32,573 nt of DNA from a virus. The notes beneath the pieces are model-generated. The model had not been told where the DNA came from and made no database searches. It saw only the letters and a list, made by a program, of their open reading frames with translations. Made by a program: the position numbers and the translations under genes. The stretch spans positions 1 through 32,573 of IMG/VR virus record IMGVR_UViG_3300004369_000073. The stretch is one strand, 5' to 3'. The first letter of the stretch is position 1. Every line of letters starts with the position of its first letter. Positions 10,482 through 30,507 of this stretch are shown in pieces.

Positions 10482-11318
10482 TTATAAAATATCTAGTGAA
10501 AAGTTGTTAAGCCCCGATGATGTGTAAACACTGCTGGAACCACGACCGATACCAACACCAGACCACTCCGACAGATCAGAGTTTTGAACAGTATCACTAA
10601 CCGAGTCTCCGGCGTACGATATGGAAGTGGGGGTGACGGTGAGCGTTACTGAACGCGAGGGGTTAGCCTGGTTATTCCTTGATACGGATTTAGGGGTGCC
10701 CACTGTTGTCAACACCCCGTTTTCCATCTTTTCAATGGCTACAAAGTAGTCGTAGTACTGGTAGGCAATATTTACTTCTTGGTATCCATACGAGTACGAT
10801 GACACAAGTTTCCAGGGTAATGACCCGCATTCTGGCTGGTACGCCCATGTCTGGGTGCCGACGACCATGGATGTCCCACACAGTGTTCCGTATATATATG
10901 GATCGTTATTGTTTGAGGTCACACCGTAGCAACCCGTAAAACTACTCCAGTCGGTGGTATATCCCCCTGAGGAGGTAATCCCACAAGAGACCCCCGAAGG
11001 CCCGTACCCGGAGTACTCGCGGATACGCATCCAGTTGTTGGCATCCTTCACGCGGAAATAGATAGCATCCCCGCCAGTTGAACTATCAAACGTGGCAGTC
11101 GCTCTGAACGACTTGTACCCGTTACGTAGAGCGTAAGCCGTATCAGTAGTTGTGGTTGTTGACACCTTGCCGCCCGACGTGCCAAAGGAGTTACCAAATA
11201 ACTTGTACCACGACGAGATGTTATCGGGCGTCGTCTTGCTATCTAGGTCTGCAACTGCGTCAGCAAACGACTCCTCGATCCTTTTCCTAACAGAGGCGGC
11301 GCTGGCTAGGACGATCAT
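10482..11318 (-). CDS. Minor tail protein with lectin-like beta domain (putative)
   Basis: 278 residues. A short N-terminal helix (ASVRKRIEESFADAVADLD) is followed by ~240 residues of beta-rich, Ser/Thr/Tyr/Gly-rich sequence: YKSFRATATFDSSTGGDAIY, then NNWMRIREYSGY and a C-terminal repeat of strands ending NNFSLDIL. The pattern 'F......s..g...fRv.d..n.m.i......g' is that of concanavalin/LamG-like folds found in phage adhesins. Five or more cysteines lie at about 118-165 (CGITSSGG, GCYGV, LCGTS, ECGS). The ATG overlaps the stop of the fibre gene (ATGA). A receptor- or sugar-binding tail tip role is inferred. Confidence 0.6.
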   Translation of the reverse strand: MIVLASAASVRKRIEESFADAVADLDSKTTPDNISSWYKLFGNSFGTSGGKVSTTTTTDTAYALRNGYKSFRATATFDSSTGGDAIYFRVKDANNWMRIREYSGYGPSGVSCGITSSGGYTTDWSSFTGCYGVTSNNNDPYIYGTLCGTSMVVGTQTWAYQPECGSLPWKLVSSYSYGYQEVNIAYQYYDYFVAIEKMENGVLTTVGTPKSVSRNNQANPSRSVTLTVTPTSISYAGDSVSDTVQNSDLSEWSGVGIGRGSSSVYTSSGLNNFSLDIL

Positions 11319-12016
11319 GCAGAAAGGTCTCCGACAACGATGAATTCGCTGGTTGCTCCATCCAGGCAGATCACGGTGGCGATGGAGTACTGGGCACGTA
11401 GGTTCAGACCTGGGGTGGCGTTGACAGTTGCCCCGGCTCCAGCGGCAATGGCCAGTGTCCCGGTCCCCCCACGGAGAACGGACAGTTGCTCACCAGTGGC
11501 AAACACTCCAGATGGGATAGTGACGGTGGACGCAGTTGTGTTGGTGAACTTTATAAGAGAACCTTTGTCGCTTCCAACAAGAGTATACGACCCCGTCTGA
11601 GATGCCACCGATAGGTCAGTAATTAGTTCTTTCCATTCCAAGCCGGTCGCTGTGGCGGAGTTGGCAGATAAGTAATACCCGTCCGTCCCCGCGGCCAGGA
11701 TCGTTGGGGTGTCAGCGGCGGAGCCGACAACAATGTCACCCTTGGCATCGATGATTTCGGGCGAGATAACTGACCCGGTGTCCAAGTCGATGGTGACAAC
11801 ACCACCAGTGCCCCCTCCGGTAAGACCTGTCCCGGCTGTTACCCCCGTAATGGTGCCTGTAGCAGGATAAGCAAGCCCTGACCATACGGTTGAACCGTCA
11901 CCAATTTTAAACTGCCGGGTGTCCGTCTCAAATCCGAATTCTCCAGAAGACAGGATGGGGTCAGCCGTGGTCCACTCAGAGGCGGTTCCACGACGAAACT
12001 GAATACGAACTGCCAT
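11315..12016 (-). CDS. Tail fibre protein with Mtd_N-like N-terminus
   Basis: 233 residues. The first ~55 (MAVRIQFRRGTASEWTTADP, GEFGFETDTRQFKIGDGSTVW) match the small beta domain that starts many phage fibres and hyaluronidase-like proteins (Mtd_N-type). A Gly/Thr-rich shaft follows (GVTAGTGLTGGGTGGV), then a segment with KGDIVVGSAADTPTILAAG and a C-terminal module (about 165-233) that closely resembles the end of the 939-residue fibre at 21011-23830. Good ribosome site (AGGAG). It is the first gene of the left minus-strand operon, behind a candidate promoter. Confidence 0.8.
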   Translation of the reverse strand: MAVRIQFRRGTASEWTTADPILSSGEFGFETDTRQFKIGDGSTVWSGLAYPATGTITGVTAGTGLTGGGTGGVVTIDLDTGSVISPEIIDAKGDIVVGSAADTPTILAAGTDGYYLSANSATATGLEWKELITDLSVASQTGSYTLVGSDKGSLIKFTNTTASTVTIPSGVFATGEQLSVLRGGTGTLAIAAGAGATVNATPGLNLRAQYSIATVICLDGATSEFIVVGDLSA

Positions 12017-12815: not shown

Positions 12816-13130
12816 ATGAGGTCAAAAGAGTCGGGGTCTGCAACCGGAGTGTACAACGCACAGTCTGACATTGAATACCACGAGTATTTGTTGACGGTGC
12901 TTCGGTATTGCTGTGGGCTAGACCCCACTGTGGATTGCACTATTGATGACCTGGTTGGGGCCATTGTTGAGTTACACCCAAAGCGCCCCGTCGAGGGGTC
13001 CCAGGACAACTTGGACATTGAGAAGTACGAGCCGGTTTATCTCTTCACACAGAAATACCGAGTATCACTCCTGCGCTCCGCCCGACGTGTATGGCGGGGC
13101 TACACTATTGCGAAAGCCCAGGTGGCGTGA
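12816..13130 (+). CDS. Small hypothetical protein
   Basis: 104 residues, ATG at 12816 with AAGGA about 8 bases upstream. Mostly helical: IEYHEYLLTVLRYCCGLDP (about 19-37) and a C-terminal basic helix, YRVSLLRSARRVWRGYTIAK (about 81-100). The middle is acidic (DIEKYEPVY). Its stop overlaps the next ATG (TGATG), tying it to the putative methyltransferase-fold gene. The Arg-rich terminus could bind nucleic acid, but no known domain is recognised. Confidence 0.6.
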   Translation: MRSKESGSATGVYNAQSDIEYHEYLLTVLRYCCGLDPTVDCTIDDLVGAIVELHPKRPVEGSQDNLDIEKYEPVYLFTQKYRVSLLRSARRVWRGYTIAKAQVA

Positions 13131-13906
13131 TGTACAATAATCAATGGTTTGAGCGTTCTCGTGTTGCACGGATGTACTCCACCATTTCCTCAGCGTCAGA
13201 TCTACATGCCCGTTCCGAGTTGATGTCCGACTTCGGTGTGTTCGCTCGTAACTTTCTAAACGAGTGCAACGTCGATAAGCGAAACATCGCAACGTCATCA
13301 GACGGTGAGTTGTTCAAATACGACCTCATCTCCAGTAACGCAGACAACGAGGGGTGGGCAGACGGTGTTTGGATGACCCTGTCGTTATCTCGCCTTATCG
13401 CCCTTCTTGGTGACACAGGTACTCCAGAGAACCCCCAGAAGGTGTTGGCTGAGCCGGTGTCACAGATGCACGAGATCATTGACTCACCTAACCGCCCAGA
13501 CCTTGATCTGTACTTCATTAACACTCCTGATTTCTGTATGGTGGAAAAGTTCCTACAGCAAACTCCACACGTGGCTGATTTCTCGCAACTCAGATACACC
13601 GTGGTTGACGCCCAGGAACTTGTCGATGGGTCACTCGACCAGTACTTTGATCTGGTTCGTACGTACAGCCGCGACTTGATGTTTTCGACTCTGTCCTTGA
13701 CAGAAGGAGTATTAAACTCTATAAAGGTTGGAGGTCGTCTATCCATTTCGACCGTATCCGACTTCAGTAGCCTGTATCGTGATAGTTTACGCACACACGA
13801 GAATGACTACAGCATTCTCAACAAGTACCTTGTAAATAGGTCGGACTTTGAAATCATGCACGTACCAGTTGAGTTTGGCTTCGCCATCGGAAAGCGCACT
13901 TCATGA
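13130..13906 (+). CDS. Putative class I methyltransferase-fold protein
   Basis: 258 residues from the ATG at 13130 (TGATG junction); the earlier in-frame ATG at 13091 would overlap 40 bases of the upstream gene. The C-terminal half resembles the second half of a Rossmann-like methyltransferase: an acidic strand end LRYTVVDAQELVDG (154-167), YFDLVRTYSRDLMF (172-185) like 'FDlV.....l', then GVLNSIKVGGRLSIST (193-208) like 'vLkpGGrl.is', and a last strand FEIMHVPVEFGFAIGKR. The glycine-rich SAM loop is not seen; residues 125-135 (DLYFINTPDF) occupy its place. It may therefore be inactive or bind something else. It is coupled to the oxygenase gene by an ATGA overlap. Confidence 0.45.
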   Translation: MYNNQWFERSRVARMYSTISSASDLHARSELMSDFGVFARNFLNECNVDKRNIATSSDGELFKYDLISSNADNEGWADGVWMTLSLSRLIALLGDTGTPENPQKVLAEPVSQMHEIIDSPNRPDLDLYFINTPDFCMVEKFLQQTPHVADFSQLRYTVVDAQELVDGSLDQYFDLVRTYSRDLMFSTLSLTEGVLNSIKVGGRLSISTVSDFSSLYRDSLRTHENDYSILNKYLVNRSDFEIMHVPVEFGFAIGKRTS

Positions 13907-14877
13907 CCACTACGACTGCCTACCCTTACGCCAAGTTGGGCAAGGACCGCATTCATGAGTTACAAAAAATTGAGTACATCAACCATGGTTGCGGTATTGT
14001 ACAGTTTAAAAATGTAATAAACATACCTACTCAAGATGTTATTCCATATATTGACGACAACGTCGAAGTGCCCTCATGTGGAATGCGTATCGAAAAAGAC
14101 GAGTCAGGTAATGTATTTGCGTACCAATACGACGGTACCCCAGTACCATACGAAAACCTTCTCCGTATGCCGCTTAGGTTTTACAACCCACATGGACACG
14201 GAGGGGGTCCAGTAACCCCAACGACCCCATATTACCTTGTTGACTTCTTCTGTGAGGCCGAGGACGTGGCGTACAAGTGCTTGCTGAGGTACGCAGACCT
14301 TCACCCATTTATTGTCGGCACCCTTCAGTGGCGCGCACGCGGGCATGTGTTGAAATACGTTAAAGGCGCGTCCTTGGGACTCCATAACGATAATGACACC
14401 AACACGATGATCATTAACGGTCAACGGTATTTCTCCCAACGAGACATAGCGGTTCACCAAACCGTAAACGCCATTCTGTACTTAAATGATGACTATGAGG
14501 GTGGCGTATTCCGTTTCCCAGTAGCCAATGTGACGCTAAAAGCCGATAAGGGAGACATCGTGTTCTTCCCGGCTAACTACGTTGGTACACACGCCGTGTC
14601 CCCTGTTACCAAAGGTGAGCGTTACGTTTATCTTATTGAGTACGGTAATGGTGGTAATAAGGTAACCGAAATAGCAGAACCAATGGATAGTGGAGAATGG
14701 GGTCTGCTCACTTGGATGCCTTTTGTTCGGCAAGACTATGAGGCGCTGGTAACGGCTGGTCTATCAGACTACGACGACAGTGCAGACGTAGAACTAGGAT
14801 TACATGGCTCCACGCTTGTTAAGCAAAACCGCACGCCAGAAGGACCCCCGGAAGGTACGTTTATACCTTACGATTGA
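13903..14877 (+). CDS. 2OG-Fe(II) oxygenase, prolyl 4-hydroxylase-like
   Basis: 324 residues. The double-stranded beta-helix enzyme core is at about 135-250: iron ligands H161-N-D163 (GLHNDND) and H230 (GTHAVSP), 2-oxoglutarate-binding R240 exactly ten residues later, and the usual strand signatures ILYLNDDYEGGVFRFP and KGDIVFFPANYV between. The first ~130 residues include a His/Gly-rich loop (YNPHGHGGGPVTP) not typical of the minimal enzyme, and there is a ~70-residue C-terminal extension. The substrate is unknown; family members hydroxylate proline or other side chains and small molecules. It is the last gene of the plus-strand island and overlaps the convergent minus-strand gene by 17 bp. 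Confidence 0.85.
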   Translation: MTTTTAYPYAKLGKDRIHELQKIEYINHGCGIVQFKNVINIPTQDVIPYIDDNVEVPSCGMRIEKDESGNVFAYQYDGTPVPYENLLRMPLRFYNPHGHGGGPVTPTTPYYLVDFFCEAEDVAYKCLLRYADLHPFIVGTLQWRARGHVLKYVKGASLGLHNDNDTNTMIINGQRYFSQRDIAVHQTVNAILYLNDDYEGGVFRFPVANVTLKADKGDIVFFPANYVGTHAVSPVTKGERYVYLIEYGNGGNKVTEIAEPMDSGEWGLLTWMPFVRQDYEALVTAGLSDYDDSADVELGLHGSTLVKQNRTPEGPPEGTFIPYD

Positions 14878-15418
14878 GCGCTTCGTACTGGTGGCGCTCC
14901 TCTTTAATTACCTTCCCAGGTTTGTCGGTCTGTATGACGGTGAACGCCGTGTCACTTAAAAGTTCAGCCAACACCCCTGCCCCCTTACCGTAGGCGTACA
15001 CGGTTCTCTCAGTCGTAAATCCTGCGGGTTCAGGGATCGGGTATCCATAAATACCAGCGTCCACGTACTGGCAGATAGGTGATAGTAGGTTACTTACCTC
15101 AACTGCATGATCGGGGGGCACGGAGTTAGCCTCAACGTATACTCCTGAGAACCCCCTCTCGTATGCTTCTCTAGCCAGTGGGTAATACCCACCTCCTGAG
15201 CAAATTGAAAACACAACGTCCGCCATGTCAAATACGTCGGCGCTGGATGGTAGGTCAGCAATGCGTAGTTCTCTTGCTCTGTCCTTGGTGTGTTCAGAAC
15301 GGCCCGTCGTGGATGTGACGACGGTGTAACCATTATTGCGTAATTGGGAGGCAATGGATGAACCCATCTTCCCCATGCTTAACACACCAATTACAAGATT
15401 CTTATAGTTTGTACCCAT
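14861..15418 (-). CDS. 6-phosphogluconate dehydrogenase-like NAD(P)-binding protein, C-terminal domain missing
   Basis: 185 residues. The N-terminus is a Rossmann fold, IGVLSMGKMGSSIASQL (10-26), matching G-x4-G-x2-G of the 6PGDH/3-hydroxyisobutyrate dehydrogenase group. Then come STTGRSEHTKDRARE (36-50), ADVVFSICSGGG (66-77), VYVEANSVPPDHA (93-105) and QYVDAGIYGYPIPEPAG (117-133), the pattern of the subgroup that normally continues into a DUF1932-type C-terminal helical domain. That domain is absent: the protein ends about 60 residues after the core. It may bind NAD(P) without full catalytic competence, or work with a partner. The start overlaps the upstream oxygenase by 17 bases; the end overlaps the convergent gene. 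Confidence 0.78.
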   Translation of the reverse strand: MGTNYKNLVIGVLSMGKMGSSIASQLRNNGYTVVTSTTGRSEHTKDRARELRIADLPSSADVFDMADVVFSICSGGGYYPLAREAYERGFSGVYVEANSVPPDHAVEVSNLLSPICQYVDAGIYGYPIPEPAGFTTERTVYAYGKGAGVLAELLSDTAFTVIQTDKPGKVIKEERHQYEALNRKV

Positions 15419-16196
15419 GGGTCATATACACGTTCGTAGATCTAAGGGCCGCTTCGGGCTGTTCAATGGGGTCAGTAACACTTTCTCGTACCGCGGAGTT
15501 CGGTGTTCCTTGACAGTACCACCCCAGGTAAGAGTACCGCCATCCGGCTGTAATCGGCTGTACCTCGTGGGCCGCTACGTAATTAGAGGGGAAAAACAGG
15601 ATCTGCCCGCGCTTTGGCTTGTGAGTAATACCTAAATACTCAAAGTGGTGGTGGCCACCCATAAAGTTGGTCCCGTCCAACTCATCTTCGGTGTCTACGC
15701 AGTCATTTAGATATGCCACTACAGAAACTGTATTACGTGTAGCAATCTGGTCTGTCGGGTGAGGTTTACCGTATTCGTAGGCAGTCGCTATGTCAGCGTG
15801 CATACCTAGGTATGACCCCGTAGGGTACGCGACTATGTGACTCTTGATCTTCCACCAAATGCAGGTTCCAGCAATTGGGTATTTTCTTAGGTAATCAAGT
15901 AAGCACTTGTCCCGCTGTTCCTCAATATAATTTAGGGTTTGGATTACTTCCGGGTCGGTGTCCTGATGAATCGCTGAACCCCTCCACGGCATGACATCAA
16001 TGGAGTTAGTAGAAAAGAAATACCCGCTCTTATTGATATACCCCATTTCCCCTGTTATCGGATCAGGGCCAGGGGTGTACATCGCATCTCGTTCACGCTT
16101 CAGTACTGTGGTGCAATATTCCCGCATCCACCCCCAATCGATGTTGAAAGCGTCGTCATACACAACGACCCCTGCCCCGAGGTCTTTACCGATCAT
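15402..16196 (-). CDS. 2OG-Fe(II) oxygenase, prolyl 4-hydroxylase-like
   Basis: 264 residues from the ATG at 16196 (GGGGAG eight bases upstream); an in-frame TTG at 16217 is less likely. Iron ligands H133-A-D135 (LGMHADI) and H210 (AAHEVQP), with R220 for 2-oxoglutarate ten residues on. The strands VSVVAYLNDCVDTEDELDG and KRGQILFFPSNYV flank an unusual loop with HHHFEYLG (182-189). The overall plan resembles the 13903-14877 oxygenase (both have 'GQILFFPSNYV/GDIVFFPANYV' and 'H..-P-T-G-R-Y-Y'), so these two are probably paralogues. Overlaps the TauD-like gene by 11 bases. Confidence 0.86.
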   Translation of the reverse strand: MIGKDLGAGVVVYDDAFNIDWGWMREYCTTVLKRERDAMYTPGPDPITGEMGYINKSGYFFSTNSIDVMPWRGSAIHQDTDPEVIQTLNYIEEQRDKCLLDYLRKYPIAGTCIWWKIKSHIVAYPTGSYLGMHADIATAYEYGKPHPTDQIATRNTVSVVAYLNDCVDTEDELDGTNFMGGHHHFEYLGITHKPKRGQILFFPSNYVAAHEVQPITAGWRYSYLGWYCQGTPNSAVRESVTDPIEQPEAALRSTNVYMTHGYKL

Positions 16197-17715
16197 GACG
16201 GTACTCCCCGGACTCAATCATGTATGTAATGTAATCTCGTACACGCTCGACCACCTGTAATCTATCCTGGTCATCCTCCAGGTGATTAAAGCACCCGTAC
16301 ACAGTGTCTATAGCGAACTGTACTAGGAAGTCTTCTGATGGCTCCTGGTTATATCTATAGAACGGCAGATTTCGGTAACTCCATGGGCGTTCTTGTAACG
16401 GTTGGTGGGGGAACCAGTCTGGGTAATGCCATCCGTGTCCAGCATGTCGCATATCTGGGTGCATACTCAGTAGACCATTCACCAGTTCTACTGGGGTTGG
16501 GGTTTCTGGGTCGGTGCGCTCCCATGTAAGCAGGTCATGTTCGGTGTTAAGACCCCGCATAACGTCCCCGTTACGGGACACCAAAAAGGCGTGACTGGCG
16601 TCAATGGGGGCATCAAAAAAACGGTGTGCGTACCTGAACAAGTGTTTGAACAGATGGGGCCTACTTGGGGTAATAACTTCAACGTGGAAATCTTCTTGGT
16701 CTTTAAAGTGCTCGATAAACGCAGTCACCGACGGGGTCAGGTTTGGGGTTATCGATATTAAAGTTACCTTCTGGTAATGCTCTTCCATTTCCGGTAATCC
16801 ATATATACCGTGGGTGAACACTAGAGGGATGTGGTCTGGGTTAGGGCCTTTTGATGAGTCTCTTGAAATACCTTTATATGTAAAGGCATCCCCGAACTCG
16901 TCATTAATGAGGGGGGCAAAGGATGGGTCATAGAAAGGCTTCTCTTGACCTATGTTCCCACGAGTAAACACACGCTCATTGTGGTCCCACCCTGGTCCGA
17001 ATGAGTGTAACAAACACCTGTTATCCCATATCACTAGGTCACCGGCAGACCAACTCCAAGACCACCAATTGTCTGGGTTGAGAAGGTACTTGTTGACCTC
17101 ATGCTTTAGTTCACTAAACCAACCTGAATCTGTCCCGTGGAGAGATACCCCATTATCTTTCCAGTACAGGGCAGTTTCCCCAGTTATTGGGTGAGTGCGT
17201 AGGGCAGGGTGCACTACGGAGTCTGTACCGTTACTATGCTCAAACAAGGCTGTTTGAAGAGCATCTTTTAATGGTTGCGGTAGTGACTCATACAAATCAA
17301 TCAAACTCACAAAGTAGGTCTGACCCCGTTCTTGTGGGCATGTAAACACGGTCATGTGCATTGACAACAGGGACGTTGTGTGTTCGTAAAAGGCATGGTC
17401 TATGTGCCAATTTTGATGAATGAAATAATCCCTATTCATCCAGTCGTTTACGTCGTTGATATACTCGTGGTGCTGTTGCTCATTTAGACCATTAGTAAGA
17501 CTAACTTCTGAGTTGCCACAATACAATGATTGCTGTATGGACAAATGTTCGTTACGAGTAGGTTGCAACCCGGAGAACGCTACAACTTTATACTTAGTTA
17601 GCAGTTCGGAAAAGTACTCTCGGTCATCGATAATCTGTTGCGGTGTAACACCCTTTGTCTTAAAACCTAGTGTTCCTAGTTTTAGACCAACCGCTATTCC
17701 GCCTTTGATTCCCAC
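16186..17715 (-). CDS. TauD/TfdA-like 2OG-Fe(II) dioxygenase with long C-terminal extension
   Basis: 509 residues from a GTG at 17715 (GGGAG upstream). The first ~260 residues are a TauD-type enzyme: H104-I-D106 in NWHIDHAFYE, distal H237 in WDNRCLLHSFG, and R248/R252 in ERVFTRGN; PALRTHPITGETALYW (170-185) is the TauD signature. The remaining ~220 residues (from about 290) are not part of the usual ~290-residue enzyme: a strand-helix region, KVTLISITPNLTPSVTAFIE, then SHAFLVSRNGDVMRGLN and a Trp/His-rich end. I do not recognise that part. The gene overlaps the DUF6065-like gene by 22 bases. The substrate is unknown. Confidence 0.85.
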   Translation of the reverse strand: MGIKGGIAVGLKLGTLGFKTKGVTPQQIIDDREYFSELLTKYKVVAFSGLQPTRNEHLSIQQSLYCGNSEVSLTNGLNEQQHHEYINDVNDWMNRDYFIHQNWHIDHAFYEHTTSLLSMHMTVFTCPQERGQTYFVSLIDLYESLPQPLKDALQTALFEHSNGTDSVVHPALRTHPITGETALYWKDNGVSLHGTDSGWFSELKHEVNKYLLNPDNWWSWSWSAGDLVIWDNRCLLHSFGPGWDHNERVFTRGNIGQEKPFYDPSFAPLINDEFGDAFTYKGISRDSSKGPNPDHIPLVFTHGIYGLPEMEEHYQKVTLISITPNLTPSVTAFIEHFKDQEDFHVEVITPSRPHLFKHLFRYAHRFFDAPIDASHAFLVSRNGDVMRGLNTEHDLLTWERTDPETPTPVELVNGLLSMHPDMRHAGHGWHYPDWFPHQPLQERPWSYRNLPFYRYNQEPSEDFLVQFAIDTVYGCFNHLEDDQDRLQVVERVRDYITYMIESGEYRHDR

Positions 17716-18434
17716 GATGGCTCCCTAAGTGTTGGTAGTCTCTTGTACTTTGGACCTATACGCTTTCCGTTGTGATCCAGACCTGTCTTAATGGTACCCA
17801 CCCACTTCCAGGGTTCTTCAACCCGTCGCTTCTCTTTAAAACGTCTGTAATCGACACGTTCTTTGATAACCGACTCATGATCCCGAGCGTTTTGGACTTC
17901 AAACTCAATTGAGGGCATGATCCTGGTGTCATAAACCTGGAAAAACATGAATGGCATGCCCTTCGGAAACACCACCGGCTCATTTAGTCTAGTAATCTTC
18001 CAATTCATATTAAAATCTTCTGGCCACCAATAGGGTATTGTGGCCGACATCGGGACTGCCCCATCTATAAAGAAATTGGGTGACCCAGTAATCCACAATG
18101 CGTGGTGTTCAGGAAGATTAAAGGTCCACGCTGTCGGGAACGAAATAACACCAGGAATTGTGTTATCTGCAATCTGCTTTTGGTACTTGTGCCCTTCCTG
18201 GGTTGTGAATTCACACATGGACCCAGACAGTATTTGTGGTGGGTTCATGCTCCCATCGTGTTGGACAACTACATCTTGTTGGAGCACTAATTCCCAGCCA
18301 GCAATGTTAGCGTTAGCGATTGGTAAGCATGAGTAAGCGTGACCTCTGTGGGTGTCGTCCATCCAATCACGCTTAAGCGGTGCCCTCCTGATAACCGGGG
18401 GCACATGGTGCATCATTGTGACCTTAGCCTTCAT
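17694..18434 (-). CDS. DUF6065-like protein
   Basis: 246 residues from the ATG at 18434; the longer frame upstream is antisense-like and overlaps the preceding gene by more than 100 bases. The N-terminal RRAPLKRDWMDDT (16-28), AYSCLPIANANIAGWELV (33-50), FPTAWTFNLPEHHALWITG and the Phe/Met-rich PFMFFQVYD match what I remember of DUF6065 proteins (a proline-rich 'R.W.D.t', 'y.ClP..iaN..GWe'). Their function is not established; the fold looks cupin/beta-sandwich like. The basic C-terminus (YRRFKEKRRVEEPWKW) is typical. It lies between two oxygenases and overlaps both neighbours, so it probably acts in the same process. Confidence 0.65.
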   Translation of the reverse strand: MKAKVTMMHHVPPVIRRAPLKRDWMDDTHRGHAYSCLPIANANIAGWELVLQQDVVVQHDGSMNPPQILSGSMCEFTTQEGHKYQKQIADNTIPGVISFPTAWTFNLPEHHALWITGSPNFFIDGAVPMSATIPYWWPEDFNMNWKITRLNEPVVFPKGMPFMFFQVYDTRIMPSIEFEVQNARDHESVIKERVDYRRFKEKRRVEEPWKWVGTIKTGLDHNGKRIGPKYKRLPTLREPSWESKAE

Positions 18435-19068
18435 TGGCAACCTTGTGTTGGTGGTTACGGTCGTTGTAGTCGTACATTGTGACAGCGGAGTACTTAGTAC
18501 CAGTAATAACTGGAAGAGACGAGTGAGCGTACACAAACGTCGACGGGTGGATAAGGAGGTCCCCCATCTCAGGCTTGAATTTCACGTCAAAGTACGGAAG
18601 TACGTATTCTCCACCTGTGTAACCATCATTGATATACCCAATAGTGGACACAACACATGTGTATGAATACCCCGAATCTGGGTGTACTGAGAAGTGTTGA
18701 CCTTCCTGGTACCTAACGAAGTTTGTGGCTTCCTCGTACTCTAGTTTTAGGTTGTTGTAGAGACCACAGTAGTGGGACAGACATTCCCTAACTCCTGTGA
18801 TTACCTCAGTGTAGATCTTTCCTAACTCTTCAAATCCGCCCTCTGTAATCGGTAATTCCGATTCACGGATTTTGTAATCCGAGCAATTACGATAGTCAAG
18901 CATCAACTCAGTGTCTCCCACCATCGAGGTGTGCCACGAGTACCGGTCATGGGTGCTCTCTTGAAGGGTGTTTTCCAATCGCTCAACAAAATTAGAGTCC
19001 TTAGGCCATACGTTCTTATACAGAACAATGCCTGATGAACGATGTCCAATAACGCCTGCTACATCCAT
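18424..19068 (-). CDS. 2OG-Fe(II) oxygenase, prolyl 4-hydroxylase-like
   Basis: 214 residues from the ATG at 19068, which has GGAGAA upstream; 16 further in-frame codons upstream are unlikely to be used. Iron ligands H129-P-D131 (FSVHPDSG) and H182 (YAHSSLP), with K192 ten residues later as the 2-oxoglutarate ligand, as in true prolyl hydroxylases, where Lys is used. FVRYQEGQHFSVHPD and IGYINDGYTGGEYVLPYF are close to the P4H consensus. It is the shortest and most canonical of the set. It starts 14 bases after the glutathione-peroxidase-like gene. Confidence 0.87.
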   Translation of the reverse strand: MDVAGVIGHRSSGIVLYKNVWPKDSNFVERLENTLQESTHDRYSWHTSMVGDTELMLDYRNCSDYKIRESELPITEGGFEELGKIYTEVITGVRECLSHYCGLYNNLKLEYEEATNFVRYQEGQHFSVHPDSGYSYTCVVSTIGYINDGYTGGEYVLPYFDVKFKPEMGDLLIHPSTFVYAHSSLPVITGTKYSAVTMYDYNDRNHQHKVANEG

Positions 19069-19082
19069 GATTTCTCCTGTTG

Positions 19083-19997
19083 TTATACACCTAGGTACTG
19101 GTTGATGTGGGAACACATTATCTCAAAAGACAGTTGAACACCAAACGCCTTGTTCTTCTTGTCAATCTCAGCGGTGGTCATAGCGCGCGGAAGGTGGCTT
19201 GGTTTTCCATTGTCCAGTAAGCCTTCAGGCCACCAAGGGAATGGTTCATTAAGAACGTCGCGCTCCCCAAGGAGAAACCCATTGCCAAACCTTTTAATCC
19301 TTGTCCCGGTTTTGTCTACCAGGAACTTTGTAAAGTTGCCCGACAGTGGGGTCACCGCACGACGGTCCAGGGGAGGATTGGGTTCATTATTACAAGGTGG
19401 TCCGGTGGGTTGGTCCACCCACGGCACATACTCGTCGTGAAACGGGATACCGTCACTACGCAAAGTCGCCGTGGTGTACCCAGTCAACAGTTTCCACAGG
19501 TTATCCGGCTCTTGTTGTATCGACCCACTGGGGACCCACGATGGGTCATACACATGCTTATCGATACGGCTGACCGTCAACTCCGAGTAGGCGTAGGTAG
19601 TGTTGTAGTTGTCTATACCGTACTTTTTGGATAACTGGCCTGGGGTTAGATCAAGGTGGTTTTCATCAATATAGTTCTGTAGACCTTTACTGTATTCCGG
19701 GTAGCCATGGCACACGAAATCGTCGACAACGACTGCTATTACGTCGAATTGGTCATTCTGTAGGTAGTGCTGGTGCACCTTTTCTAGGTGTTGGTGTTGA
19801 GGAATATTGCCACAACCAGCCGCCACGTTAAATAAAAGAGACACTTTTCCTAGCCGGTTATTAAACAGGTTGTTGGTAGTACCGGCCTCTAGCAGGGCGT
19901 TCTCATAAATACTGGTGTCGAGGATGTACTCAATAGGTTGGACGTTCCGTACGTGGGCTACTTCTTGCTCTGTCGATTTCCTGGACAGGGTTTCCAT
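19083..19997 (-). CDS. Glutathione-peroxidase-like (thioredoxin-fold) protein
   Basis: 304 residues from the ATG at 19997 (AAAGG upstream). Residues 54-80, with NVAAGCGNIPQHQHL, match the catalytic-Cys loop of glutathione peroxidases ('NVAS.CG.T.Q...L'), with Cys62, not selenocysteine. Residues 219-236 (SGNFTKFLVDKTGTRIKR) match the 'WNF.KFLVD..G...KR' block. Between them the usual 'PCNQF' is replaced by VDDF (91-94), and the Trp before Asn is Gly220, so two of the four tetrad residues (Gln, Trp) are changed and two (Cys62, Asn221) kept. A ~75-residue insertion lies at about 145-215. It may be a thiol peroxidase, oxidoreductase or binding protein. Large and unusual for a phage. Confidence 0.72.
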   Translation of the reverse strand: METLSRKSTEQEVAHVRNVQPIEYILDTSIYENALLEAGTTNNLFNNRLGKVSLLFNVAAGCGNIPQHQHLEKVHQHYLQNDQFDVIAVVVDDFVCHGYPEYSKGLQNYIDENHLDLTPGQLSKKYGIDNYNTTYAYSELTVSRIDKHVYDPSWVPSGSIQQEPDNLWKLLTGYTTATLRSDGIPFHDEYVPWVDQPTGPPCNNEPNPPLDRRAVTPLSGNFTKFLVDKTGTRIKRFGNGFLLGERDVLNEPFPWWPEGLLDNGKPSHLPRAMTTAEIDKKNKAFGVQLSFEIMCSHINQYLGV

Positions 19998-19999
19998 GT

Positions 20000-20638
20000 C
20001 TACACCTTTGTAATCGTGTAGAAGGCCGGGGTTGTCCACCGCTCTCCGCTTGTCACCTGCCGTACTCCATGAAGGTAATGGATGTCCCCAGGGTGGGCAA
20101 TAGCGGTGCCTGGTTCAATCTCAACCTCAATACCGTGTTGGGGGTAGTACAGTTGCCCGCCCTCAAAGTCAGCGTTCCAATAAAAGATTGAATTGATATC
20201 GTAGTTTAAGAAGGGGTTAGGGGACCCATCGTTCAACTGCTTATCAGCATGTGGTGCCTGCTCAGTACCAGGCAACCACCTAACTAACGTGGGGCTTCGT
20301 CGAGATAGTTCTACCTTGAAGCGTTCCTCTAGGTACCACTTCATCTTGAGTACGTAGAAATCGATAATGGAATACAGGTCTTCGCCCGCCCAGCCACCCT
20401 GAGCGCGTAGGTCGCTACACACCCTCTGGTACCAGTAACTAGCGTTGTATATACACTCGCCATCCTCGTTGAACAGGTCCTCACCAGCGTCATCCCACTT
20501 ATGGATGCGCTTACACAGTTTCTGGACGAGTTCAAGGTCTTCGTCTTTGATGAAGTTGCGAAGAACCACAATATTGTCAGGGGAGTCACCAAAGTGTCCG
20601 GGTTCCACCAGGGACTTTTCAGTTGTCATTGTGTGCAT
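20000..20638 (-). CDS. 2OG-Fe(II) oxygenase, prolyl 4-hydroxylase-like, coupled to Pro-rich repeat gene
   Basis: 212 residues from the ATG at 20638, one base after the stop of the Phe-Pro-Pro repeat gene; a second ATG at 20629 is possible. No ribosome site is seen for either, so translation probably depends on coupling. Iron ligands H130-A-D132 (QAPHADKQ) and H190 (HYLHGVRQ), R200 ten residues later. SIFYWNADFEGGQLYYP (150-166) and EPGTAIAHPGDIHYLHG fit prolyl hydroxylases. N-terminal region 20-60 is acidic. The neighbour upstream ends in (FPPF)n, a conceivable substrate (inference; see findings). Confidence 0.86.
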   Translation of the reverse strand: MHTMTTEKSLVEPGHFGDSPDNIVVLRNFIKDEDLELVQKLCKRIHKWDDAGEDLFNEDGECIYNASYWYQRVCSDLRAQGGWAGEDLYSIIDFYVLKMKWYLEERFKVELSRRSPTLVRWLPGTEQAPHADKQLNDGSPNPFLNYDINSIFYWNADFEGGQLYYPQHGIEVEIEPGTAIAHPGDIHYLHGVRQVTSGERWTTPAFYTITKV

Positions 20639-20639
20639 G

Positions 20640-21008
20640 TTAGAACGCTGGGGGGAAGAATGGGGGGAAGAATGGGGGAAAGAACGGTGGGAAAAATGGT
20701 GGGAAAAATGGTGGAAAGAACGGTGGGAAGAACGGTGGGAAGTGTGGCGGGAAGAACGGGGGGAAGTATGGGTTTGCCACGACATAGTCGATGACTTCAC
20801 CGAATGGTACAACACTGTTAGCAGTATCTACCTGAGAAATAACCTTATCGAGGTTTGCAGTGCCGATTGACCCGTCACTATCGTTAATAGGGCTGTTAGT
20901 TACTGAGCCAGTAAACCCAGCGTTTGTTACCTGTGTAGCGGCAGTACTAGAAGTTTGTCCAACAAGGTTGGGCACTGTCCCCTTTGGGATATCTTCCTTC
21001 TGTGACAT
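20640..21008 (-). CDS. PASTA-domain protein with (Phe-Pro-Pro-Phe)n tail
   Basis: 122 residues. Residues 11-78 form one PASTA domain: VPNLVGQTSSTAATQVTNAG (12-31), a middle strand, then 'VISQ' and VPFGEVIDYVV (67-77). PASTA domains bind peptidoglycan-like ligands. Residues 82-122 are almost pure tetrapeptide repeats FPPF (ten units, one FPPH, last FPPA), a stiff, aromatic polyproline tail. A ribosome site AAGG precedes the ATG, and the gene follows the 939-residue fibre after 2 bases. It is likely a virion appendage or fibre accessory. Similar FPP-repeat tails occur in environmental phages (recollection, not checked). Confidence 0.8.
   Translation of the reverse strand: MSQKEDIPKGTVPNLVGQTSSTAATQVTNAGFTGSVTNSPINDSDGSIGTANLDKVISQVDTANSVVPFGEVIDYVVANPYFPPFFPPHFPPFFPPFFPPFFPPFFPPFFPPFFPPFFPPAF
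20643..20765 (-). repeat. 12-bp tandem coding repeats for FPPF units
   Basis: About ten degenerate 12-base units (TTC CCN CCN TTC/TTT on the minus strand). Codons vary at third positions (CCC, CCA, CCG), so selection acts on the protein, although the purine/pyrimidine strand bias is extreme (Pu-rich plus strand). Copy number is likely variable through slippage. Confidence 0.85.
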
Positions 21009-27892: not shown

Positions 27893-27909
27893 ATACCCAG
27901 TGTACCAAG

Positions 27910-27983
27910 TGCCGGGTACGGGAGTTGAACCCGTCTACGAGTGTTTATAAGACACCTTGCGTCAACCGGACGCACCACCCGGC
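27910..27983 (-). tRNA. tRNA-Ile (anticodon UAU)
   Basis: A complete cloverleaf folds on the minus strand: acceptor GCCGGGT/ACCCGGC (7 bp), D stem TGCG/CGCA with a GG-containing loop, anticodon stem GGTGT/ACACT with loop CTTATAA (anticodon TAT), 5-base variable region, T stem ACGGG/CCCGT with loop TTCAACT, discriminator A. The 3' CCA is not encoded. It reads AUA codons. A UAU anticodon avoids the lysidine-modified CAU tRNA that bacteria normally use. It sits inside the lysis region. Confidence 0.93.
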
Positions 27984-28689: not shown

Positions 28690-28863
28690 CTATTCTTCGT
28701 TAGAATCTTCCGGCATGGCAGTCCCAATCATGTGTAGCACGAAAGAGGCCACGAATGTGTATGTTGCGAGTTTTAGAGTCTGCCCTGTTAGGGTATATAG
28801 AACTAATAGAGTTCCGCACACAGTCCATATTTGTGCGTGTAGTTCTTTAATAAACTTCATCAT
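28690..28863 (-). CDS. Small two-helix membrane protein
   Basis: 57 residues, read from the gap. Two hydrophobic segments (IWTVCGTLLVLYTLTG, about 12-27, and ATYTFVASFVLHMIGTA, about 33-49) with a short acidic end (PEDSNEE). The ATG overlaps the stop of the secreted Thr/Pro-rich gene (ATGA), which supports it being real. Probably a membrane protein of the lysis or host-envelope region; function unknown. Confidence 0.6.
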   Translation of the reverse strand: MMKFIKELHAQIWTVCGTLLVLYTLTGQTLKLATYTFVASFVLHMIGTAMPEDSNEE

Positions 28864-30425
28864 TTGACCTTTCGACTGGACGTGGGGCTAGGCATCACAA
28901 AGATCGCCGCTGTTGCGACAATGATGACTCGACGTGTACCTACAGGAACCTTGGAGTCAATAGGCACATAGGAGTCGAATTGACCACTAAAGATGTTCAC
29001 ACTTTCCTGAAACTCCTGTTTGACCTCTTTTGGTGCGTCAGATAGTGCAACTGCAATGTCTTCTGCTTCCTCATCAGATAAGTCAGCGGTTGCTACTTCT
29101 TCAATGAGTTCACTGATCTCATCGTCTGTTAGGTCGGATAACTGGTCAGGCGTGATCTCTGTTATATAAGAGACCAGTTGTTCACTCGTGGGTGTTTCAG
29201 GAATTACGGGAACCGCAGACGTTGCAACTGCGGTCACAGTAGTCGCAGGAGCAGATTCCGGTGTCACAACACTCGTGACCACAGGTTCCGTCGAGGGCGG
29301 CAAGGAAGTCGTCAATACTGTCGTAGGTGGGGCGGTTGTCTGTGGGGCGGTTGTCTGTGGCGGTGTGCTCACTACTGTTGTCGTGACAGGCACAGTCGTT
29401 GTCGGTGCAGTAGTAGTAGGCGTCGTCGTCGGGGGTGTGGATGTTGTAGTTGGAACCCATGTCGTTGTTACCTCCGTGGGCGGGGGGATGTAGATGGGAG
29501 GAGGGATATAAACCGTTGTCGTCGGAGGGACCGTCGTTGTTGTCGGAGGGACCGTCGTTGTTGTCGGGGGGACTGTGGTGCTTGTGGTCGTTGTAGCAGT
29601 CGGCGTAGACACCAGTATTTCTACGGCGTTCGACCAACTAGAGTACAATCTCAAAGAGTCATTGTCAGATCGAATCTTAAAAACATAAATTTGGTCAAGA
29701 CCGCCAGTGCTTTCCAGAATGGAGTAAGGCACGGTGATTTCAGTGATAAGCGCGGTTTCGTCACCTACATTGCCTGTAGCCCAACCCCAGCCTCCGATGC
29801 CCTCAACACTCCACGAAATTGCATACCGCTCGGGGCTGACGTTGCCGTCAGTTGGTTCGTCCCAGTCTAGGAAGAATCCGGTTTCAATCTCGGTTACTGT
29901 GAGATTTAGTGGTGCACCTATCGACTGGGGGACTGTCGTGGTGGTCGTGGGAGGTTCCGTCGTGGTACTGGTGGTACTGGTGGTGCTACTGGTCGTCGTC
30001 GTTTCTTCAACCGTTGTAGTAGTTTCGGGTGGGGCATTAGTGGGTATTGCATTAAACTCAATTGTATACCCATTGTTTTCTTCCCAGTATGACCAGGCAT
30101 TTGGGTCACCACAACAAACCCCTGCACGGAGACGATATGACCCCGTCCCAACCTCTATCTCGATCCACGAGTCCAAGCCGAACCAATCGTCATTTTGAGT
30201 GATGAGGTTGTCGCTTTCGTCGTACAACCATAGGTGTGTGTCATACCCAACGTCTTGACCGTATGCACGAGCCTTGATTGTTGACGGCTCTTCAAACGTG
30301 AAATAGAAGTCCGTTGGCTCAGGGACGCTTAAGGTTGTCGAAGCACTAGCAGACGGTGCGAACCAGGCAATGACCAAAACAGAAACGAGAAGTAGTCGAG
30401 CGCTATTCAGTAAAGTGCGTCTCAC
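28860..30425 (-). CDS. Secreted, Thr/Pro-repeat protein with PPC-like and FnIII-like domains and C-terminal anchor
   Basis: 521 residues from a GTG at 30425, preferred because GGGAGGG lies four bases upstream and the product then begins with a clean signal peptide (RRTLLNSARLLLVSVLVIAW...ASA, cut near residue 29). Residues about 32-125 are a PPC-like beta domain (YDTHLWLYDESDNLITQNDD); 130-165 and 265-395 are Thr/Pro-rich linkers with TTTTVPP repeats; 165-260 is an FnIII-like domain (FFLDWDEPTDG, ISWSVEGIGGW). An acidic helical region (about 405-480) precedes a short C-terminal hydrophobic segment VIIVATAAIFVM and basic tail. This is the layout of actinobacterial surface proteins. It may be exposed on the infected cell or be host-derived. 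Confidence 0.78.
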   Translation of the reverse strand: MRRTLLNSARLLLVSVLVIAWFAPSASASTTLSVPEPTDFYFTFEEPSTIKARAYGQDVGYDTHLWLYDESDNLITQNDDWFGLDSWIEIEVGTGSYRLRAGVCCGDPNAWSYWEENNGYTIEFNAIPTNAPPETTTTVEETTTTSSTTSTTSTTTEPPTTTTTVPQSIGAPLNLTVTEIETGFFLDWDEPTDGNVSPERYAISWSVEGIGGWGWATGNVGDETALITEITVPYSILESTGGLDQIYVFKIRSDNDSLRLYSSWSNAVEILVSTPTATTTTSTTVPPTTTTVPPTTTTVPPTTTVYIPPPIYIPPPTEVTTTWVPTTTSTPPTTTPTTTAPTTTVPVTTTVVSTPPQTTAPQTTAPPTTVLTTSLPPSTEPVVTSVVTPESAPATTVTAVATSAVPVIPETPTSEQLVSYITEITPDQLSDLTDDEISELIEEVATADLSDEEAEDIAVALSDAPKEVKQEFQESVNIFSGQFDSYVPIDSKVPVGTRRVIIVATAAIFVMPSPTSSRKVK

Positions 30426-30440
30426 CGACCCTCCCATTAA

Positions 30441-30507
30441 TGAATTAAACAACAATACTTATTTGTTGTACAAATTCATCACGGGTGGTTACTGTATAAG
30501 TATACCA
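30441..30507 (-). promoter_or_regulatory. Candidate promoter and stem-loop upstream of the secreted-protein gene
   Basis: On the minus strand TGGTATACT (30507-30499) is an extended -10 box. About 25 bases later, ACAACAA and TTGTTGT (30469-30463 and 30455-30449) form a 7-bp stem with 7-base loop, extended by outer arms TGAATT/AATTCA (30478-30473, 30446-30441). The ribosome site of the GTG start follows. An upstream TGTATAAA (30523-30516) is a weaker alternative. Confidence 0.4.

Follow-up and report, generated by a model that had tools for sequence, protein, structure and literature searches.

A conserved 2OG-Fe(II) oxygenase cassette linked to a Phe-Pro-Pro-x tract on tail-type proteins of uncultured phages

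Across uncultured phages, a tract of Phe-Pro-Pro-x (FPPx) units on tail-type proteins and a set of 2OG-Fe(II) oxygenase genes travel together, and the linkage is specific. The best explanation, which we regard as probable, is that these phages possess several enzymes dedicated to hydroxylating the FPPx tract of their own tail fibre. In the window analysed here (the whole IMG/VR record, 32,573 bases), the cassette should be taken to reach upstream to position 21008, so that it includes the gene for a PASTA-domain protein carrying the tract.

Background

Aquatic phages commonly carry 2OG oxygenase genes whose presence is unexplained. The prolyl hydroxylase of a chlorella virus reportedly has substrates that include proline-rich repeats of viral proteins. 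This enzyme is a precedent for viral prolyl hydroxylation, and 4-hydroxyproline is reported in chlorella virus proteins, in the passages of PMC9301287 that cite Eriksson 1999; the viral use of prolyl 4-hydroxylase has been called cryptic (PMC9301287). EGLN3-like folds in marine phages appear in the Phold paper (PMC12774648). Our literature search, which left most subscription journals and all preprints outside its reach, found neither FPPFFPP nor DUF6065.

Results

The window holds one block of overlapping genes, surrounded by tail genes, in which four genes of 2OG-Fe(II) hydroxylase type are combined with a TauD-type gene and with genes for a GPx-like, a DUF6065 and a Rossmann protein (Table 1). 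P0001 and P0002 lie on the plus strand and are convergent with the other seven of the nine genes. The original prediction had read all nine as a single block; the overlaps bear this out, but the reading passed over the convergent pair and overlooked the PASTA-(FPPx)n gene. Its open frames and coordinates were right, with corrections to the likely starts of P0007 (19068) and P0009 (20638). A DNA comparison of the block with cultured phages found nothing similar. The window's terminase shares about 46% identity with the terminases of Streptomyces phages, BRock and LuckySocke among them, and an actinobacterial host is therefore plausible from sequence. Elsewhere, the window encodes a tail protein (11315-12016) whose Mtd_N domain, the N-terminus of the major tropism determinant, matches PF18454 at 3e-15, and has a minus-strand tRNA-Ile gene (anticodon TAT) at 27909-27983. 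A 531-residue protein encoded at 28860-30455 contains a long stretch rich in Thr and Pro (TTTTVPPTTTT) and stands apart from the remainder of the genome.

Table 1. Genes of the cassette and the adjoining tract carrier in the window
Gene	Product	Position	Strand	Basis
	Tail-type protein of 122 aa; PASTA domain, then (FPPx)n tract at the C-terminus (~20643-20765); proposed substrate	20640..21008	-	PASTA PF03793 3e-5
P9 (P0009)	2OG oxygenase, prolyl 3-/4-hydroxylase-like	20000..20638	-	phrog_61; family profile; H, D, H, R conserved
P0008	GPx-like thioredoxin-fold protein; Cys kept, GPx Trp lost	19083..20039	-	Pfam, family profile
P7 (P0007)	2OG oxygenase, prolyl 4-hydroxylase-like; core member	18424..19068	-	PF13640; profile; H, D, H, K invariant
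P0006	DUF6065 protein, dUTPase-like fold (predicted); core member	17694..18434	-	PF19541 4e-34; model
P0005	TauD-type 2OG oxygenase, C-terminal extension ~240 aa	16186..17715	-	PF02668 1e-25
P4 (P0004)	2OG oxygenase	15402..16196	-	PF13640 3e-10; H, D, H, R conserved
P0003	Rossmann NAD(P)-binding protein	14861..15418	-	PF03807, PF03446
P2 (P0002)	2OG oxygenase, convergent	13903..14877	+	PF13640 1e-9; H, D, H, R conserved
P0001	Protein of no recognised family; methyltransferase fold unproven	13130..13906	+	homologues in cassette loci

The gene directly upstream of P9 encodes a PASTA domain and then FPPFFPPHFPPFFPP... through to the C-terminus, and the P9 start codon lies one base past its stop. 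The tract contains neither Lys nor Arg. The same PASTA carrier and tract occur in the related locus L001 and in 39 other loci. A DNA pattern for four FPPx units matched at least 119 viral stretches. The 135 distinct tracts make up 1757 units with a median of 12, and a tract typically has about 12 and up to about 34 Phe-Pro-Pro-(Phe/Tyr/His/Trp) units. Positions 2 and 3 are Pro by construction of the search; position 1 is Phe in all 135 tracts, though F, Y, H or W was permitted there, and the fourth position is Phe in 58%, Tyr in 19%, His in 15% and Trp in 1.5%. Synonymous codons vary across tracts, and hence it is at the protein level that the tract is conserved. The carriers are unrelated (PASTA, Fn3, and one with a Peptidase_S74 chaperone). 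His stands at x in 91% of the tracts whose cassette has TauD versus 24% of those without it (73 tracts), an association confounded by lineage that may reflect either lineage or a match of enzyme to residue. A Hint-like (self-processing) sequence such as CINEDTLILTSEGYKMAKDIKIGD follows the tract in some phages (L046:517-1863, L090:3560-6478, L007).

The tract is all but missing from bacterial genomes, where the FPPx pattern gave 17 matches in 257 Gb, only three of them of phage type, and these three are probably phage contigs in MAGs. No PASTA-FPPx or Fn3-FPPx protein was found in cultured phages, where a low-complexity filter may hide the tract. Many metagenomic contigs start or stop inside the tract (L204, L207, L209, L235, L244 and others), and since assemblies break there, the tract-enzyme gene pair is likely to be missed often.

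Fifty contigs of 22 kb or more were chosen for the tract alone. PF13640 oxygenases were present in 46 of them, mostly in 5-11 copies each, and DUF6065 in 40; three others (G005, G035 and G043), possibly fragments, yielded no PF13640 or PF13759 gene. Contigs picked by random 15-mer had PF13640 in 0/36 and the tract in 0/36; this set is unmatched for environment, and the Fn3 test described below serves as the matched control. The closest of the oxygenases listed lay downstream of the tract in 42/45 cases and on the same strand in 41/45, and P9, P7 or GPx was no more than 150 bp from the tract gene in 56 cases. Taken by itself, nearness within contigs says only a modest amount (combined p 6e-4), because oxygenases are so numerous on tract contigs.

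Of 80 loci fetched with P7, 61 had the tract, in every case upstream of the enzyme and in the same direction; most of those lacking it, by a wide margin, had little upstream sequence, with L261 as the clear exception. Taken alone, this reverse test is biased, because the P7 alignment came mostly from tract-bearing loci. Less biased are tests with the Fn3 and PASTA carriers, whose queries contain neither tract nor enzyme. Among relatives of the Fn3 carrier, P7, P9 or DUF6065 was found in 57/57 with the tract versus 0/22 without it (Fisher 5e-20, which presumes independent loci, whereas these phages are related and their counts are not independent). When only relatives at 56% identity or less were considered, the cassette was present in 9/9 with the tract versus 0/21 without, and despite kinship the contrast is close to absolute. 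Relatives of the PASTA carrier with the tract had cassette genes in 33/39, the other six having less than 1.6 kb left downstream; where at least 1.65 kb remains, the figure is 33/33.

The gene set, predicted to be a coupled one, recurs with the same genes in the same order in many phages. L001, found via P0002 (79% identity), holds the same block in the window order of FPP, P9, GPx, P7, DUF6065, TauD, P4 and DH with convergent P2 and P0001, and the order is near-identical in L084, L205, L207, L208, L213 and L217. L193-L195 have a window-like order with P0001 and P2 turned round. A core of FPP, P9, P7 and DUF6065 is widespread among the loci; in one large group of them, P9 is encoded on the other strand. 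Among the additional 2OG genes of L001 lies an FAD-dependent Trp halogenase (PF04820; L001:4390-5898), which also occurs in G037, G044 and G047; with 3/50 tract contigs, it was rejected as a member of the cassette.

The four prolyl-hydroxylase-like proteins of the original prediction hold up. P0002, P0004 and P0007 scored above the PF13640 cut-off, and P0009 was recognised in family searches by phrog_61 only and is further placed by its family profile. All four (P2, P4, P7 and P9) have the HxD...H motif with Lys/Arg exactly ten residues past the distal His, and the triad and this basic residue, predicted to bind 2OG, are essentially invariant in the 43-135 homologues of each family (P7, n=135; P9, n=120). 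Scattered genes in unrelated orders or unconserved catalytic residues would have counted against the original prediction, and neither was seen. Among solved structures, the best match to the P9 family profile is prolyl 3-hydroxylase 1 (7e-7), followed by prolyl 4-hydroxylase, and the profile of P7 matches the Bacillus anthracis prolyl 4-hydroxylase (2e-6) as well as collagen lysyl hydroxylase LH3. This suggests that P7 and P9 are peptidyl-prolyl hydroxylases, a prediction from sequence in which the nearest solved structures are prolyl 4-hydroxylase and prolyl 3-hydroxylase 1, respectively. The P2 and P4 families matched no solved structure, hydroxylases included. P0005 is TauD-like, as had been proposed (PF02668, 91.4 bits, above the cut-off), with H, D and H in 23/23 homologues and R or K in 23/23. 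Single-protein scans of viral contigs returned no close relatives of P0005 or P0008.

Of the partner proteins, the DUF6065 assignment of P0006 was upheld at 118.6 bits against a cut-off of 26.6. A structure model from 13 sequences (pLDDT 40) was discarded and one from 79 sequences (pLDDT 92.9) was used; it matched dUTPases at Z ~11, and a dUTPase-like fold can be predicted confidently. The predicted fold is shared with dUTPases, yet the active-site motif (Asp and Tyr of motif 3) was not evident by inspection of conserved columns in the 79 DUF6065 sequences, and the DUF6065 protein has about 100 additional residues. At the one bacterial DUF6065 locus inspected, the gene stands between housekeeping genes with no 2OG gene.

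The GPx-like identity given to P0008 is right in part. Its Pfam match to GPx (7e-5) falls below the cut-off, while the family profile matches GPx at 4.7e-18. Measured against the GPx tetrad (Cys, Gln, Trp, Asn), the family keeps Cys in 24/24 and Asn in 25/26 and has Gly for Trp in 26/26. With its Trp replaced, the tetrad is incomplete and glutathione peroxidase was rejected; P0008 would at most work like a thioredoxin-fold relative. P0003, described as a truncated 6PGDH-like protein, matches the Rossmann N-domain only (F420_oxidored, NAD_binding_2), and membership of the 6-phosphogluconate dehydrogenase family was rejected since the C-terminal catalytic domain is not matched. L045, L193, L194 and L198 encode the Rossmann protein as a fusion with another 2OG domain, and P0003 is shorter than these fused homologues; the fusions tie the Rossmann protein to the same pathway, in keeping with the proposed coupling of an NAD(P)-binding partner to the set. 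The methyltransferase fold suggested for P0001 gained no profile support, as Pfam, PHROGs and NCBIfam gave no family match; homologues of P0001 co-occur with the TauD-containing form of the cassette.

Discussion

We infer that the tract is the substrate, and likewise which residues are modified, what the accessory proteins do and what the resulting arm is for. The cassette would serve virion-protein maturation, with the gene of a tail-fibre-type protein bearing a C-terminal tract and the enzyme genes directly behind it. In the infected cell, several 2OG-Fe(II) oxygenases would hydroxylate this tract, either ahead of tail assembly or as it proceeds. The prolines would be the targets of enzymes of the P9 type (prolyl 3-hydroxylase-like) and the P7 type (prolyl 4-hydroxylase-like), and P2, P4 and the TauD-type enzyme would act at other positions, perhaps on aromatic residues. 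The DUF6065 protein, with its predicted dUTPase fold, may serve as a carrier or scaffold, with accessory roles for the GPx-like protein and the Rossmann protein. The outcome would be an extended arm for adhesion, hydroxylated and polar, comparable to collagen, extensin and mussel adhesive proteins; whether it provides adhesion or stiffness is a guess. We see an even chance that in uncultured aquatic phages P9, P7, DUF6065 and more oxygenases put different hydroxyls on the tract and so make a hydroxyproline-rich adhesive arm like extensin or mussel adhesive protein, with aromatics also modified in some lineages.

The original prediction had left the target among fibre proteins, glycans and metabolites. 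Fibre proteins are strongly favoured, because the enzyme genes lie behind genes for tail-type proteins that bear a proline-rich tract; glycans and a small-molecule pathway found no support. It is unlikely that the enzymes act on a different tail protein or on a molecule of the host surface while the tract and cassette merely share a hot spot for tail and accessory genes. Such a hot spot would account for the position of the block among tail genes, for cyanophage 2OG genes that stand beside tail genes without a tract, and for the three tract contigs without enzymes. It does not sit well with carriers of the same family, which have no cassette when they have no tract (0/22 versus 57/57), or with a cassette that lies behind PASTA, Fn3 and Peptidase_S74 chaperone carriers alike, provided that the tract is present.

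An auxiliary metabolic pathway, with the oxygenases working on a small molecule or host metabolism and taking the GPx-like protein and the Rossmann protein as redox partners, would suit the TauD-type enzyme, a class whose substrates are mostly small molecules. Phage 2OG or prolyl hydroxylase genes are also usually classed as auxiliary metabolic genes (PMC9301287). The tight linkage to a structural repeat in position and in presence or absence, the match of the core profiles to peptidyl hydroxylases, and a Rossmann protein that is truncated here and, in relatives, part of a fusion with a 2OG domain make this pathway quite improbable. Active sites with essentially no variation across the 23-135 homologues of each family and a conserved gene order render it barely credible that these are decaying or non-catalytic passenger genes with no common role, even though the GPx-like family has lost the GPx Trp and P0003 is shortened relative to its fused homologues.

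Hydroxylation of the tract by the cassette, the reading we prefer, has partial parallels in known systems. The chlorella virus likewise encodes its own prolyl hydroxylase, but there it is one enzyme in a eukaryotic algal virus, whereas here it is a conserved multi-enzyme bacteriophage block bound to a Phe-Pro-Pro-aromatic tract on tail-type proteins. The collagen machinery (prolyl 4-hydroxylase, prolyl 3-hydroxylase 1 and LH3) is matched by the P7 and P9 families by profile, at low identity, and also links several oxygenases to a single repetitive proline-rich protein; the collagen repeat is Gly-X-Y, in contrast to a period of four with aromatics in the phage tract, and the phage partners are DUF6065, GPx-like and Rossmann proteins. 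The 2OG oxygenases of T4-like cyanophages (phrog_61) belong to the same superfamily and are often near tail genes, but no FPPx tract was found in the stretches inspected. Neither the DUF6065 protein nor the GPx-like one was matched in the cultured phage collection.

Conclusions

With a candidate substrate beside the enzymes, the role of these oxygenases becomes a question open to a direct mass-spectrometry test. If the proposed modification is true, phage tails would carry a collagen-like chemistry for which the host supplies the oxygen, iron and 2-oxoglutarate. DUF6065 would then have a context, and a compact enzyme set for producing hydroxylated repeat proteins might be gained.
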